Below are positions 43,651 through 49,998 of a stretch of DNA of 64,000 nucleotides, piece after piece. This DNA comes from an uncultured Latescibacterota bacterium (lineage in GTDB: Bacteria > Latescibacterota > UBA2968). Under the pieces are notes generated by a model. That model was not told the DNA's origin and made no database searches. It saw only the letters and a program-made list of their open reading frames with translations. Made by a program: the position numbers and the translations under genes. Positions within the stretch are counted from its first letter, which is position 1. Each line of letters starts with the position of its first letter. The stretch is taken from contig OY282377.1 of assembly GCA_958295785.1 (NCBI GenBank), forward strand, positions 386,394-450,393. Direction: 5' to 3'.

Positions 43651-44552
43651 TTATCTTTATTTTTTTAGATAACTTTGAAGATCAGTTTTCACAGATATTT
43701 ATTGATGTTCATAAAAAATTGTGCCGTGAGTATGGATGGGAGGAATTGTGCCGTGAGTATGGATGGAAGAAGAGATTGTCGTGGGATGAGAAAATTGGGT
43801 ATGATTCAATGGCAGGAAAACAGCGGCGAGAAGAATTGAGACAGGAAAAAGAATTGAGACAGTTTTTTGCTTCAGAAAAAAAAACAGAAAGGGTAATTGA
43901 TGTCATTGAACTTTTATTTCTATATATAGAACAATACAAAGCTGATAGGAATAAGGCAAAAAAAGTAAATGGAGCAATTAAGGAATTAAATATTCGTTTC
44001 CGCGAGCATGGCGTGGGGTATCAATATGAATCGGGTCAAATCATAAAGGTTGATTCGCAGTATGTTCATTCTGAGGTGGTGCGTCCTGTATTGAATTTGC
44101 TTTCCGACCCGATGTATCAAGGTGCAAATGCGGAATTTCTGAAAGCCCATGATCATTACCGAAAAGGCGACTATGAATCGTGCATAATCGAATGTTCTAA
44201 GGCTTTTGAAAGTGTCCTCAAAATTATTTGCGATCATAGAAGGTGGGGATACAACCCAAAAGACACTGCGAAATCTTTACTTGAGATTGTGTATGGCAAA
44301 GGATTACTCCCAACACACACAAAGTCATTTTTTAGTGGCGTGAGAAGCGGGTTAGAGCACGGCGTTCCTGTTATTCGCAACAAATACGCAGCGCATGGAC
44401 AAGGAAACCAGAAAAAGTCTGTGCCGGATTATATGGCTGAAAACATGCTAAATCTTACTGCGTCAAGTATCTTACTTTTGGTAAAAACAAATAAAGCTGT
44501 GGCATAAAAATTTTGGCACACCGTACACTTCCCCTAACAAAAGGACACCACC

Positions 44553-45578
44553 ATGAGTTTCACGCGCATTCAGCCCATTCCCAGCACTGAGGAAATCAAG
44601 GCGCGGTTGCCCCTGCCCGATGATTTGAAGGCCATCAAAGCGGGGCGAGACGCGGAGATTCGGGCGATTTTTGAGCGCGAGAGCGATAAGTTCTTGCTGA
44701 TCATCGGCCCGTGCTCGGCGCACAATGTCGATGCGGTGTGCGAATACGTCAACCGCTTGGCGCGATTGCAAGATCAGGTGCGGGACAAACTGGTGCTCGT
44801 ACCGAGAATTTACACCAACAAACCGCGCACCACCGGCGAGGGCTACAAGGGCATGGCCCATCAGCCGGATCCCAAAGGGACGCCCGATATGGTCATAGGG
44901 ATCAAGACCATTCGGCAAATGCAGATTCGCGCGTTCCACGAGTCGCACTTAACCGCAGCCGATGAGATGCTCTACCCCTCCAATTTGCCGTACTTGGAAG
45001 ATTTGCTGAGTTATATTGCCGTGGGCGCGCGGTCCGTTGAAAATCAGAACCACCGCCTGACCATCAGCGGTGTGGATGTGCCCGCGGGCATGAAAAATCC
45101 AACGGGTGGGGATTTGGATGTGATGTTCAACGCCATTTACGCGGCGCAAATCCCGCATGTGTTTTTCTACAACGGCTGGGAAGTCGGCACGTCTGGCAAC
45201 CCGCTGACGCACGCGGTTCTGCGCGGGATGGCGTATCAAGGGCGTAGCATGCCCAATTATCACTACGAGGATTTGATCCGCATTGCCGAACACTATCTCG
45301 CGCGCAACTTGGACAATCCAACGCTCATTGTGGATACCAACCACAACAATTCCAACAAGATATTCTCGGAACAGCCGCGCATTGGCCTCGAGGTGATGCG
45401 TAGCCGGCAGCATTCCGCGCTCCTCCGCAACACAGTGCGCGGGTTGATGGTCGAAAGCTATTTGCAAGAAGGGTCGCAAAAAGCCGACGAAGGCATATTT
45501 GGCAAATCGATCACGGATCCGTGCTTGGGATGGAAAGATACAGAAGTCTTTGTGAAGGAATTGGCAGAGGTGGCTTAG
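44553..45578 (+). CDS. aroG: 3-deoxy-7-phosphoheptulonate (DAHP) synthase, class I
   Basis: This 341-residue enzyme condenses PEP and erythrose 4-phosphate, the first step to chorismate. FLLIIGPCSAHN, VPRIYTNKPRTTGEGYKG, GARSVENQNHR and DTNHNNSNK match the AroF/G/H type (AroI-alpha). Which aromatic amino acid inhibits it cannot be read from sequence, so the symbol is by class only. It lies just downstream of the defence island and begins the second block of aromatic genes. Confidence 0.94.
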   Translation: MSFTRIQPIPSTEEIKARLPLPDDLKAIKAGRDAEIRAIFERESDKFLLIIGPCSAHNVDAVCEYVNRLARLQDQVRDKLVLVPRIYTNKPRTTGEGYKGMAHQPDPKGTPDMVIGIKTIRQMQIRAFHESHLTAADEMLYPSNLPYLEDLLSYIAVGARSVENQNHRLTISGVDVPAGMKNPTGGDLDVMFNAIYAAQIPHVFFYNGWEVGTSGNPLTHAVLRGMAYQGRSMPNYHYEDLIRIAEHYLARNLDNPTLIVDTNHNNSNKIFSEQPRIGLEVMRSRQHSALLRNTVRGLMVESYLQEGSQKADEGIFGKSITDPCLGWKDTEVFVKELAEVA

Positions 45579-45683: not shown

Positions 45684-45904
45684 ATGAATCAAAGAGAAGT
45701 CTTATTTGACAAAGCCCAGCGAAATCCAAATGGATTGCAATTTAGAGCGTTTGAACGCCTCATGCGTCAATGCGGATGGACGCAGCATGGTACTCGCCCG
45801 GCGGGTATCGGCTTATTGTTCAACCCAATCGCGCCATGGCCAAGGGCTACCAAGTTCGACAATTTCTCAGACAATATCATCAGGAGACAGAAAATGAAAA
45901 ATAA
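45684..45904 (+). pseudogene. hicA: HicA-like toxin, frameshifted
   Basis: The first frame gives LFDKAQRNPNGLQFRAFERLMRQCGW; after a shift near 45785 another frame gives YRLIVQPNRAMAKGYQVRQFLRQ. Together they match the HicA variant ending in 'KGYQVRQFL'. The central SGSHHxY segment with the catalytic histidine is lost or altered. It overlaps hicB by 11 bases. Confidence 0.65.
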
Positions 45905-46136
45905 TACTCAGGACGACTTCAATGGATTCACGGTCGAGATGTTCCCCGATGAGGATGGCGATTATCTCGTGCATTTTGCAGAGTTCCCCAATGTCTCGGC
46001 TTTCGGCCCGACACCCGGCGAGGCGTTGGTTGAATTGAAAGCAGCATGGGAATTGATGAAAGAATGTTACCGCGAGGACGGCGATCCCATTCCAAAACCG
46101 AACAGGATACCCGAGATTGAAAAATTTGCAGGATAA
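45894..46136 (+). CDS. hicB: HicB-family antitoxin
   Basis: 80 residues with the HicB fold signature: FNGFTVEMFPDEDGDYLVHFAEFPNVSAFG then TPGEALVELKAAWELMKECY. AGGAG precedes the ATG. It normally neutralises HicA and represses the operon. Because hicA is broken it may be a free antitoxin. Confidence 0.82.
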   Translation: MKNNTQDDFNGFTVEMFPDEDGDYLVHFAEFPNVSAFGPTPGEALVELKAAWELMKECYREDGDPIPKPNRIPEIEKFAG

Positions 46137-46164: not shown

Positions 46165-46338
46165 ATGGATGTATTGGCTAAAAAATTAGACGCGAAATTG
46201 CGCGAATGGGAACCGAATGCCGTCGGGCGAGTTGCGGAAATCATCGATCTCGCAGCCCGTGATGCGTTAGATATTGTGCAATCGCGTTCCGTAGAACAGG
46301 ATGTTTTGGATCTGCTCGATGAATCCACAACCCGATGA
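46165..46338 (+). CDS. Small putative antitoxin-like protein
   Basis: 57 residues, MDVLAKKLDAKLREWEPNAV to LDLLDESTTR, rich in short helices. GCGGAG precedes the ATG, and the stop overlaps the tyrA start (ATGA), which argues that it is translated. Similar short proteins are often found with toxins, but no toxin is adjacent here. Confidence 0.5.
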   Translation: MDVLAKKLDAKLREWEPNAVGRVAEIIDLAARDALDIVQSRSVEQDVLDLLDESTTR

Positions 46339-47459
46339 GATTGGCTATTATGAACGATCCTCCATTTCAAAATGCGACGATTGCCATTGTGGGCGTGGGG
46401 TTGATCGGTGGGTCGCTGGGGTTGGCATTTAAGCGCCTGGGCATTGGGCGCGAGATCATAGGCATCAGCCGCGCCGAAACCCTAACAGAGGCCCGCGCGC
46501 TCAACGCGATTGACACGGGCTGTGAATACGCCGCGATGGACCGCGGCATCAAACGGGCCGACCTGGTGTTTTTGTGTTCGCCCATTTCGCGCATTTTGGC
46601 GCAACTGCCCGCGGTCATGCGCGCGGCATCGCCGGGGGGCATTGTCACAGACGTGGGCAGCACCAAGGGCGCGATAGTCGCATGTGCAGAACGCGCATCG
46701 CGCAAAGGCGTGCATTTTGTGGGCGGGCACCCCATGGCCGGGTCGGAAAAGAGTGGCGTGGGCGCGAGCGATCCCTTTTTGTTTGAAAACGCGCTGTATG
46801 TCCTCACGCCAGCGAGCGGTGTGCCCAACGATATTGTCGATGCGCTCGGCGCGCTGGTGCAAAATCTCGGCGCGCGCGTGATGTGCATGGACGCCGAGAC
46901 GCACGACCGGGTCGCGGCAGCCGTGAGCCATTTGCCGCAACTGATGGCGACCGCCCTCGTCGGCTTGGTGGGCAGGCGCAACGAAGCGGATGGCCTCTCC
47001 TTGCAAATGGCCGCGGGTGGGTTCCGGGATTTGACGCGCATTGCGTCTAGCCCTTATGCCATGTGGCGCGACATCTGCGCGACCAATGCCGGCCCCATTC
47101 GAGAGGTGATCGATGCGTATCTCGCCGCGCTTGCGGCCCTGCGCGAAAAGGTCGATAGTGAAACACTCGCAGAAAATTTCGACTATGCCAACCGGATTCG
47201 CGGGGGCATTCCCAAAGATTCCAAAGGGTTCTTGCATCCGCTTTGCGAAATTTTGCTCGTGGCAGAGGACAAGCCCGGGGTGATCGCCGACGTGGCGTCT
47301 CGCCTGTCTGCCGAGGGGATCAACATCGAAGATATCGAAGTGCTAAAAGTCCGCGAGGGCGAAGGCGGGACCATTCGGATGGGGTTTGGTCGAGTGGCAG
47401 ATGCCGAGCGATGCGTGGCTATTTTGCGCGATGCGGGCTATCAGGCGCGGTTGCGTTAG
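46335..47459 (+). CDS. tyrA: Prephenate dehydrogenase with C-terminal ACT domain
   Basis: 374 residues from 46335; an ATG at 46350 is also possible. The Rossmann motif VGVGLIGGSLGLAFKRLG (residues about 18-35), GGHPMAGSEKSGV (active-site His) and AAVSHLPQLMAT are those of NAD(P)-dependent TyrA. Residues about 300-374 form an ACT domain (KPGVIADVASRLSAEGINIEDIEV) for feedback control, probably by tyrosine. With the AroQ mutase at 18021 it gives prephenate to 4-hydroxyphenylpyruvate. Confidence 0.94.
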   Translation: MRLAIMNDPPFQNATIAIVGVGLIGGSLGLAFKRLGIGREIIGISRAETLTEARALNAIDTGCEYAAMDRGIKRADLVFLCSPISRILAQLPAVMRAASPGGIVTDVGSTKGAIVACAERASRKGVHFVGGHPMAGSEKSGVGASDPFLFENALYVLTPASGVPNDIVDALGALVQNLGARVMCMDAETHDRVAAAVSHLPQLMATALVGLVGRRNEADGLSLQMAAGGFRDLTRIASSPYAMWRDICATNAGPIREVIDAYLAALAALREKVDSETLAENFDYANRIRGGIPKDSKGFLHPLCEILLVAEDKPGVIADVASRLSAEGINIEDIEVLKVREGEGGTIRMGFGRVADAERCVAILRDAGYQARLR

Positions 47460-47475
47460 GCGATGGGAGAGCGGT

Positions 47476-48120
47476 ATGTATGTGGTCAAAGAAGCGCGTG
47501 GGCTCGTCGGCGAATGCGATGTGCCGGAGGATCCGGATACCGCGCTGTATTTGCTCGGCACTGCGGCGATGTTGCCGCGTTCAAACTTGACGCTTCACGG
47601 CATCTGCGACGGGTGGAAAACCCGCCGCGCACTGGACTTGTTGCGCCGAATAAACGCCCAACTGGACATTCGCGTGACGCGCTCAAAATCCAAAATTCGC
47701 ACGGTCAACGTCAAAGGCTCTGAACTGCGGCGCACGCGCATGGGCGGCGAACAAACCGCGCTGTTTATACAAGAAGTGCCGTTCCTCGCCGCATTGGGCA
47801 CGCAGGCCGCGGGTGAAACCGTGATCCGCGATGCCGAGCGGTTGCGCCATGGCGCGTTCGACCGCCTGTCATTGGTCATTCAAAATTTGCGTCAGATGGG
47901 CGCGCGAGTCGGCGAAATGCCCGACGGTCTGGTCGTTCAAGGGCCTGTGCGGCTTCAGGGAACAGAGGTCAATGCCGGCGGCGACGCGCGCACGGGACTG
48001 GCCTTTGCCCTCTCGGGACTCGCCGCCGAGGGCGAAACGCGCGTGCTCAATCCGGGCGACATGTGTCGAGAATTTGCCGAGTTATTTGCCCGTTTGTCAA
48101 CCCTTGTCAAAAAGAGGTGA
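47476..48120 (+). CDS. Half-length, degenerate EPSP synthase-like protein
   Basis: 214 residues that align with only the second half of AroA (normal length about 430): GECDVPEDPDTALYLLGTAAMLP, VPFLAALGTQAAGETVIRDAERLRHGAFDRL and VNAGGDARTGLAFALSGLAA. Key EPSP synthase residues are changed: DEIP is QEVP (catalytic Asp lost), the LRxKExDR motif is LRHGAFDR, and GDHRxAM is GDARTGL. No N-terminal domain is encoded nearby. It could be a regulatory or structural relic; catalysis looks impossible. GGGAG precedes the ATG, 16 bp after tyrA. Confidence 0.78.
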   Translation: MYVVKEARGLVGECDVPEDPDTALYLLGTAAMLPRSNLTLHGICDGWKTRRALDLLRRINAQLDIRVTRSKSKIRTVNVKGSELRRTRMGGEQTALFIQEVPFLAALGTQAAGETVIRDAERLRHGAFDRLSLVIQNLRQMGARVGEMPDGLVVQGPVRLQGTEVNAGGDARTGLAFALSGLAAEGETRVLNPGDMCREFAELFARLSTLVKKR

Positions 48121-48124
48121 GATC

Positions 48125-48286
48125 ATGAAAATCCTGTTCAAACTCGCGTTGTTTGCGATTGTGCTCATCATGGGCGGCGTGGCGTTTATCCGCTACACGT
48201 ACAACTGCTCGTGGAAAGAGAGTTTTGACATCGCAGACGAATTTGTCGATGATTTGCTGGGCGGCGGGAGGAAGGGTGAGAAGTGA
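48125..48286 (+). CDS. Small single-pass membrane protein
   Basis: 53 residues: MKILFKLALFAIVLIMGGVAF forms one N-terminal membrane segment, followed by an acidic tail with DDLLGGG. GAGGTGAGATC lies just upstream, 4 bp after the aroA-like stop, so it is very likely translated. Function unknown. Confidence 0.55.
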   Translation: MKILFKLALFAIVLIMGGVAFIRYTYNCSWKESFDIADEFVDDLLGGGRKGEK

Positions 48287-48389: not shown

Positions 48390-49262
48390 ATGAACATTCG
48401 CGCAACAAGCCGAGTACTGGGCGTGATTGGCGACCCGGTGGCGCATTCGTTTTCGCCCGATATGCACAATGCCGCTATCGCCGCATTGGATGTGGACTAT
48501 TGCTATGTGGCGTTCCATGTGTTGCCCGACCGCATAGCCGAGGCGATCCATGGGATGCGCGGGTTGAATATCCGCGGACTGAATGTGACCATTCCGCACA
48601 AGTTGGCGGTGATGGAACACCTGGATCGCATTTCAGAAGAAGCGTCGGCCGTGGGCGCGGTCAATACCATTTCGCATGAAGATGGGGCCTTGGTGGGATA
48701 CAATACCGATGTGTATGGCATCTTGACGGCCTTGCGCGAGATCGCGGGGCTCAAAACACTGCCCGCGCAATGCGTGGTGCTCGGCGCGGGGGGTGCGGCG
48801 CGTGCCGTGACGTACGCGCTGGGCATGCAGGACGCGGTGCAACGAGTGACCCTTTTGAATCGCACGGTAGCGCGGGCCGAGGCTCTGGCAGGGGATATGG
48901 AAAAAATCACCGGGAAGACAATCGCTGTGGGGCCGCTGGATGCCGAGACGCAGCGCAGATCATTCGCCGATGCGGGCGCGGTTGTGAATACCACCTCTTT
49001 GGGCATGTATCCCAAGGTCAATGCCTCGCCCCTTGTCGATGTGCGCGCAGTGCATCCGGGGTTGGTGCTTTGCGATACCGTGTTCAACCCATTGGAAACG
49101 CAGTTGATGCGCGCGTTCAAATCGGTCGGCGCGCCGGCCTTTGGCGGGTTGGATATGCTGGTCTTTCAAGGGGCGCGGTCCTTTGCGATCTGGACGGGTG
49201 TCGAACCGCCCACGGATGTGATGAAAAACGCGGTTGTCAAACGGGTGCGCCGTGAAGCATAA
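48390..49262 (+). CDS. aroE: Shikimate dehydrogenase
   Basis: This 290-residue enzyme reduces 3-dehydroshikimate. GDPVAHSFSPDMHNAAI (shikimate site), LNVTIPHKLAVM (catalytic Lys/Asp region), GAVNTI, GYNTDVYG and the NADPH loop VLGAGGAARAVTYAL are all present. The ATG follows a repeat-like CTGACCACT stretch with no strong ribosome-binding site. It overlaps menG by 11 bases. Confidence 0.95.
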   Translation: MNIRATSRVLGVIGDPVAHSFSPDMHNAAIAALDVDYCYVAFHVLPDRIAEAIHGMRGLNIRGLNVTIPHKLAVMEHLDRISEEASAVGAVNTISHEDGALVGYNTDVYGILTALREIAGLKTLPAQCVVLGAGGAARAVTYALGMQDAVQRVTLLNRTVARAEALAGDMEKITGKTIAVGPLDAETQRRSFADAGAVVNTTSLGMYPKVNASPLVDVRAVHPGLVLCDTVFNPLETQLMRAFKSVGAPAFGGLDMLVFQGARSFAIWTGVEPPTDVMKNAVVKRVRREA

Positions 49263-49998
49263 GACGCAAAACGAGAGACTCGCGCGCGAGGTGTTGACAG
49301 ACCGAGAAGCCAAGCGCGCATTTGTGCGGCAGATGTTCGACCGCATTGCCGACAGATACGACTTGCTCAACCATCTCTTGAGCATGGGCATCGATATTTT
49401 GTGGCGCAAAAAGGCCATTGACCAGTTGCAACCCGCGCCGCGCTGGCGCATTTTGGACTTGGCCACGGGCACGGGCGATTTGGGGTTTGAAGCGGGCAAA
49501 CGCGGGGGCGATATTCAGGTGATCGGCGCGGATCTCTCGTTGCCGATGTTGCGCCGAGGCGAAAAAAAGAATGCGTCGCAAACAAATCCAGTCGCTTTTT
49601 TGTGTGGGGATGGCGAGTGCCTGCCCTTTGCCGATGGCGCGTTTGACGGGTTGACGATTGGATTTGGCATTCGCAACATGGCGTCGTTGGATGCCGCGCT
49701 CGGGGAGATGTGCCGCGTGCTCAAGCCGGGTGGGCGCGTGGCTGTGCTGGAGTTTTCAAGGCCGCGTACCCCTGGGTTTCGCGGGGTGTACAATTTTTAT
49801 TTCGAGCGCGTCTTGCCCCGCATTGGACATCTAATTTCCCGCGACCCCAATGCGTACCGATATTTGTACGAGTCTGTGATGCGCTTTCCCGAAGGCGGCG
49901 ATTTCTGTCGGTATATGGCCGATGCGGGCTTTGTCGATGTGCAGACGATTCGGCTGACCTTTGGGATCGCAACCCTCTATTTGGCGTCGAAACCCTAA
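49252..49998 (+). CDS. menG: Demethylmenaquinone/ubiquinone C-methyltransferase (UbiE/MenG family)
   Basis: 248 residues from GTG 49252; an upstream ATG at 49234 is possible. FVRQMFDRIADRYDLLNHLLSMG is the UbiE N-terminus; ILDLATGTGDLGFEAGK is the AdoMet site; IGFGIRNMASLDAALGEM and EFSRPRTPGFRGVYNFYFERVLP are family-specific. It methylates the quinone ring in the last steps of menaquinone or ubiquinone synthesis, a pathway that branches from chorismate, so its place beside aroE makes sense. Confidence 0.92.
   Translation: MKHKTQNERLAREVLTDREAKRAFVRQMFDRIADRYDLLNHLLSMGIDILWRKKAIDQLQPAPRWRILDLATGTGDLGFEAGKRGGDIQVIGADLSLPMLRRGEKKNASQTNPVAFLCGDGECLPFADGAFDGLTIGFGIRNMASLDAALGEMCRVLKPGGRVAVLEFSRPRTPGFRGVYNFYFERVLPRIGHLISRDPNAYRYLYESVMRFPEGGDFCRYMADAGFVDVQTIRLTFGIATLYLASKP

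Follow-up and report, generated by a model that had tools for sequence, protein, structure and literature searches.

An EPSP synthase homologue with a lost active site, reduced to a single domain, is kept under purifying selection in the tyrA-aroE operon of Latescibacterota

EPSP synthase (EPSPS, AroA) is the target of glyphosate and a textbook two-lobed enzyme. The window, a stretch of 64,000 nucleotides from an uncultured Latescibacterota bacterium, carries between tyrA and aroE a gene for an EPSPS homologue of about half the usual size, and this raises the question of what the gene encodes and why it has been kept. Its frame runs through 214 codons without interruption, and its start codon lies 16 nt after the stop codon of tyrA, the two being separate ORFs (Table 1). 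The preliminary description of this DNA had reported an intact frame of 214 residues with a good ribosome-binding site, placed in a tyrA-aroE operon, and both points hold: a GGGAGAG motif precedes the open frame, tyrA is immediately upstream and aroE downstream. The Pfam model EPSP_synthase (PF00275) matches the protein at 4e-27 over profile positions 225-414, and the NCBIfam model TIGR01356 (aroA) matches it with an E value of 1.3e-27. Thus, considering the open frame, the ribosome-binding site and the two profile matches together, the ORF is not a product of chance. The TIGR01356 score is 96.7 bits, far below the equivalog cut-off of 287.25 bits. The best sequence match in the PDB is 3rmt (2e-27), and the nearest named records are one labelled 'Candidatus Latescibacterota' (L038, 78%) and one from a bin labelled Gemmatimonadota (L037, 79%).

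Table 1. Features of the operon and of the EPSPS homologue, in window coordinates.
Feature	Coordinates	Strand	Evidence
DAHP synthase, aroF/G/H type	44553..45578	+	TIGR00034 over cut-off
tyrA, prephenate dehydrogenase, C-terminal ACT domain	46335..47459	+	Profile matches
Gap between tyrA and pseudo-aroA, containing the GGGAGAG ribosome-binding site	47460..47475	+	Direct sequence
One-lobed EPSPS pseudoenzyme, domain 1 only, 214 aa	47476..48120	+	ORF, profile, alignment, AlphaFold2, fold match
Codons 1-14, N-terminal strand of the full-length protein (E. coli AroA 4-16)	47476..47517	+	Alignments
Codons 15-19 (DVPED), in-frame junction of the domain 2 excision	47518..47532	+	Alignments
53-aa microprotein, single TM	48125..48286	+	ORF at the 3' side of pseudo-AroA; TM by eye
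aroE, shikimate dehydrogenase	48390..49262	+	TIGR00507 over cut-off
ubiE/menG-like methyltransferase, conserved downstream neighbour	49234..49998	+	By eye from sequence; synteny

Two further genes lie nearby on the same strand. A gene with AbiJ_NTD4 and DUF7014 domains, of the abortive-infection type (window 43719-44507), directly precedes the gene for DAHP synthase, and an ORF between aroF and tyrA (45684-46136) is HicB-like by eye, with no Pfam match at 0.001. In the congener G008, aroF and tyrA abut.

Domain 1 of EPSPS consists of residues 1 to about 20 plus residues from about 241 to 427. The preliminary description had stated that only the second half of AroA is encoded. This was right as regards a half-size EPSPS homologue, but it missed that the N-terminal strand is kept, so that an entire structural domain is encoded. 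Indeed, residues 1-14 align with E. coli AroA 4-16 and with the N-terminus of the full-length relatives, the strand VVKEARGLVGEC corresponding to VSQEARGLKGEC in the full-length protein of G014. After this strand the protein rejoins its relatives at the (V/L)PGDP motif that opens the second part, leaving a gap of about 210 residues in the alignment with the G014 protein. In E. coli numbering the junction falls at 16|238 in the genus of the window (g1) and at 21|241 in G021, a genome of family f3 that also carries the short form, and the excised part corresponds to about residues 17/21 to 238/241. Considering the limits of domain 1, it follows that the cut which took out domain 2 fell at the hinge.

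The AlphaFold2 model of the 214-aa protein is a single confident domain (pLDDT 94, pTM 0.90), comparable in quality to that of the two-lobed G014 protein (pLDDT 93.5, pTM 0.92). A Foldseek search against the PDB matched it to one EPSPS domain, with a TM score of 0.82 by query and about 0.41 by target. The arrangement of EPSP synthase, two lobes, each built of three repeat units, with the active site between them, is absent, domain 2 being missing. According to its predicted structure, the protein is a complete, self-contained EPSPS domain 1.

The catalytic residues were then compared in E. coli numbering. The window's copy carries the changes D313Q, K340G, E341A, H385A and K411R, while K22, R27 and R124 have gone along with domain 2; R344 and R386 are still Arg. 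The earlier reading of an EPSP synthase lacking catalytic residues, with its motifs altered at catalytic positions, is therefore borne out for D313, K340, E341 and H385, with R344 and R386 unchanged. Throughout g1, D313, K340 and H385 are lost and R344 is kept. The operonic copies are dead across the whole class: K22 is replaced by L, P, R, A and others, R27 and R124 are lost in most, K340 is G in most, and H385 has become A, P, S and others. Since the full-length orthologues of related genera have lost the same catalytic sites, the loss of catalysis is not peculiar to the one-lobed form. Compared with EPSP synthase AroA (TIGR01356/PF00275), the 214-aa protein shares the sequence family, the domain 1 fold and the ancestral locus beside aroE; it differs in lacking domain 2, in having lost D313, K340, E341 and H385, and in its low family score. 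With an intact ORF, lost catalytic residues and a lineage of catalytic ancestry, it qualifies, as far as its sequence goes, as an EPSPS-derived pseudoenzyme.

A half protein could also be one part of a split enzyme, and a partner half encoded elsewhere in the genome had indeed been suggested. Engineered split EPSPS with inteins has been used in plants, as reported in PMC4051838. However, when the complete chromosome (a single contig of 5.66 Mb) was searched with a profile of the family as well as with PF00275 and TIGR01356, no free domain 2 was found, and only two EPSPS-superfamily proteins came up besides pseudo-AroA, namely a distal AroA and MurA. The distal AroA (C1:3438274-3439560), the full gene that the preliminary description had proposed to look for, has an intact active site, as have the distal AroA proteins across the class. 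With domain 1 stripped of its catalytic residues and a whole catalytic AroA present, a split EPSP synthase is refuted within the range of homology searches, and we give it practically no chance.

In family f4, matches at 40-46% identity over residues 102-210, considered as extra AroA paralogues, are MurA. The distal catalytic AroA of the f4 genera G030, G031, G036, G026, G039 and G024 scores differently, and that of G030 is very divergent from the rest of the class. These differences suggest that the working enzyme was replaced a second time, with the dead copy staying in place.

Orthologues of the pseudoenzyme were found throughout the class, between tyrA and aroE, in 45 of 47 genomes, the two without it being incomplete genomes of f4. 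The one-lobed form is present in 11/11 species of g1 (76-80% identity), which answers the question of orthologues in relatives, and also in G021; in families f1, f2 and f4, the remaining genera carry the two-lobed form. An equally dead copy stands in the same gene order in family f6, which belongs to another class, so that the operon position is conserved in the class and f6. In the basal families f5, f8 and f9 the AroA of this lineage is catalytic and a second AroA was not found; in f5 and f9 the native catalytic gene adjoins aroE.

In a tree based on domain 1, all dead copies form one clade (support 97/94), and the distal AroA falls in a separate clade together with E. coli AroA. A broader tree including Zixibacteriota kept the clade of dead copies with weaker support (84/90). 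A single origin of the one-lobed form was rejected (log-likelihood lower by 53.9, p-AU 0.002); the g1 and f3 lineages cannot be united, and domain 2 was thus lost twice. Because full-length dead forms occur in other genera of the class, catalysis died first and domain 2 was lost later. The order of events is consequently clear: the active site was lost class-wide, and then domain 2 was lost independently in g1 and f3. A full-length form in close relatives had been named as a finding that would speak against a kept half. Such a form does exist in G013 and G014, but it is equally dead. The 214-aa protein is thus the trimmed end of an old line of pseudoenzymes, not a recent relic.

The strength of selection was assessed by pairwise NG86 comparisons within the genus. 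Median dN/dS was 0.138 for the half gene, 0.136 for aroE, 0.116 for distal aroA and 0.093 for tyrA, values with which a few neutral sites remain compatible. A codon bootstrap of the half gave 0.158 (95% 0.107-0.223). The proposal that selection has kept a non-catalytic AroA half is upheld by these data: the half is maintained by purifying selection, and orthologues in all 11 species with a median near 0.14 are the opposite of an orphan gene evolving neutrally. The full-length dead copies are constrained too (dN/dS 0.12-0.36). Where two-domain dead copies were measured, domain 1 was usually under tighter constraint than domain 2 (0.21 vs 0.36 in g6, 0.19 vs 0.33 in g14), the short form of g13 showing 0.25 vs 0.21. 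As the loss of domain 2 was tolerated twice, the kept function resides in domain 1.

These values bear on two explanations in which the protein itself would have no role. The gene could be a decaying relic, a pseudogene-in-waiting that happens to be open, as the loss of catalytic residues and of one domain, and of the whole gene in one f6 genome, might indicate. Yet the frame is open in 11/11 congeners, the gene persists in 45/47 class genomes, the predicted fold is well packed, and the bootstrap upper bound of 0.22 is well below 1, which refutes neutral decay and makes a relic very improbable. Alternatively, the ORF could be kept only as a spacer coupling translation of tyrA to that of the microprotein and aroE, for which the short gaps and 4-nt overlaps on its downstream side might speak. 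Selection acts, however, on the amino-acid sequence and not on the frame alone, and an EPSPS fold would not be preserved in a mere spacer, so this explanation is hardly credible either.

Two other explanations would place the function in the old substrate cleft. In the dead copies, conservation of active-site columns is 0.50, vs 0.59 in other columns; in catalytic AroA it is 0.96, vs 0.66-0.68 elsewhere. Constraint on the protein together with poorly conserved active-site columns means that selection keeps a protein whose cleft no longer matters. The preliminary description had proposed a sensor binding shikimate-3-phosphate or PEP in the remaining half-site, and the arginines still present (R344 in all g1 copies, R386 in the window's copy) would fit it. 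The column values turn against this idea, as do the loss of D313, K340 and H385 throughout g1 and of E341 in the window's copy, the variation of position 386 (R/H/L) even within g1, the C at position 344 of the nearest full-length relatives, and the missing other half of the cleft; we regard a ligand sensor as improbable. A new enzymatic activity in the cleft would agree with the two lobes kept in the full-length form of most genera; however, conservation is lower in the columns of the cleft than in the others, and the one-lobed forms without a cleft are equally constrained, making it highly unlikely.

We infer that the protein is best understood as a non-catalytic one that partners or regulates enzymes of the aromatic pathway. 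More specifically, the protein is probably (at about 0.6) a pseudoenzyme derived from the native AroA, trimmed of domain 2 in two lineages and acting as a non-catalytic partner of a neighbouring enzyme of the pathway. A native AroA beside aroE would have been inherited within a tyrA-X-aroE operon, in a cell having a second, unrelated AroA of the E. coli-like lineage at a distal locus. The operonic copy was then inactivated in an ancestor of the class and f6, a loss that the gain of the second AroA presumably permitted. Most genera kept the dead copy in its two-lobed form; in two lineages domain 2 was deleted right at the hinge, and a self-contained domain 1 is left. What remains may work as a scaffold or an allosteric subunit of a neighbouring enzyme, most plausibly TyrA, or else AroE, and may contact it by the outer or helical face of domain 1, not by the substrate cleft. 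TyrA is the candidate that we favour on two grounds: its gene is the next one upstream, and fusions of TyrA with EPSPS have arisen on more than one occasion in other bacteria.

Natural fusions of this kind exist (NF011381; PMC1173090). The bifunctional TyrA-AroA proteins of NF011381/PRK14806 have the association of TyrA and AroA in common with the Latescibacterota operon, in which, in contrast, the genes are separate and the AroA part is dead. Open frames of 650-830 aa at some loci were considered as TyrA-pseudoAroA fusions and discarded: the high-GC pseudo-aroA frame stays open through tyrA, and tyrA lies in another frame.

A close precedent comes from Pseudomonas syringae, in a 2005 paper by Song et al. 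There, about 200 residues are deleted in the N-terminal EPSPS region of a TyrA-EPSPS fusion, a stand-alone EPSPS was laterally acquired, and the authors suggested that the truncated remnant might become a new regulatory domain (PMC1173090, in which EPSPS goes by the name AroF; Table 5 gives an N-terminal truncation and a later passage a C-terminal one). Both cases lack about 200 residues of the N-terminal region and have a foreign EPSPS elsewhere, the distal AroA of Latescibacterota lying in a different clade. The P. syringae remnant is fused to TyrA, apparently recent and limited to one species, whereas the Latescibacterota protein is stand-alone, was inactivated class-wide before the deletion, underwent the deletion twice and is under demonstrated purifying selection. 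It is an independent, older and unfused version of that precedent, and the 2005 suggestion becomes directly testable. The succession of steps can be followed here: in a lineage possessing a second AroA the native active site is lost, and a whole lobe then goes cleanly, twice, while selection continues. As to how such a protein might work, an analogy is offered by HisZ, a paralogue of histidyl-tRNA synthetase without catalytic activity, which serves ATP-phosphoribosyltransferase as its regulatory subunit (PMC10795190). There, an amino-acid pathway has retained an inactive paralogue in a regulatory role; the fold of HisZ is unrelated, and its partner and regulation are demonstrated, whereas those of the Latescibacterota protein are inferred. 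In a full-text search of an open-access collection, "EPSP synthase" and "pseudoenzyme" did not occur together in any paper; none that names an EPSPS pseudoenzyme came up, and nothing of relevance was found there on Latescibacterota in combination with shikimate.

The microprotein gene directly follows (pseudo)AroA in 45/45 loci examined in the class and f6, a count that includes G059, where it was recognised in the raw translation. Its length is nearly fixed at 46-53 aa (63-67 aa in f6), with one transmembrane-like stretch by eye and the conserved tail SW[KR]ES..IA[DE].F; its ribosome-binding site is almost always good, and its start often overlaps the pseudo-aroA stop by 4 nt (ATGA). It matches no Pfam or NCBIfam family, and is present, normally in single copy, in 51/64 genomes of the phylum; a search of 132 Zixibacteriota genomes, with no positive control there, did not find it. 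A strict tie to the pseudoenzyme was rejected, since G056 and f8 carry the microprotein without it: in f8 it lies in an unrelated gene context, away from the pseudoenzyme, and G056 (f6, 97% complete) has tyrA-microprotein-aroE with no AroA copy between, so that the pseudoenzyme is dispensable there.

The constant position, near-fixed length and conserved tail of the microprotein would suit a membrane tether, in which the pseudoenzyme binds this single-TM protein and brings TyrA or AroE to the membrane. The same G056 and f8 loci show that the link is not obligatory, and a tether seems unlikely. As a tentative and rather doubtful extension of the partner reading, tyrA, the EPSPS pseudoenzyme, the 46-53-aa microprotein and aroE could form an ancient phylum-specific module in which the dead domain, as a dedicated scaffold or allosteric subunit, would bring TyrA and AroE together, possibly at the membrane. 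If so, EPSPS domain 1 would be an independently useful non-catalytic module, an idea in line with the three or more further origins of dead EPSPS in Zixibacteriota, beside argS. At the f3 locus of G021 (L189 6377-7657), an open frame of about 320 aa, phosphotransferase-like by eye, lies between tyrA and the one-lobed pseudo-AroA.

In Zixibacteriota (L237-L248), EPSPS homologues with lost active sites stand directly downstream of argS in most of such loci fetched. The tree places at least three independent inactivations there, and several of these genomes have a catalytic AroA elsewhere. Judged by their residues, dead but intact EPSPS proteins are a recurrent outcome. Their position beside argS and not tyrA makes it less likely that the fold in general serves TyrA specifically. 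It would be a mistake to annotate AroA-like matches of these phyla as EPSP synthase or to predict glyphosate sensitivity from them. In one Zixibacteriota genome (L040 3236-4606), the only AroA found carries K22R, R27Q and R386L, yet it scores above the AroA cut-off.
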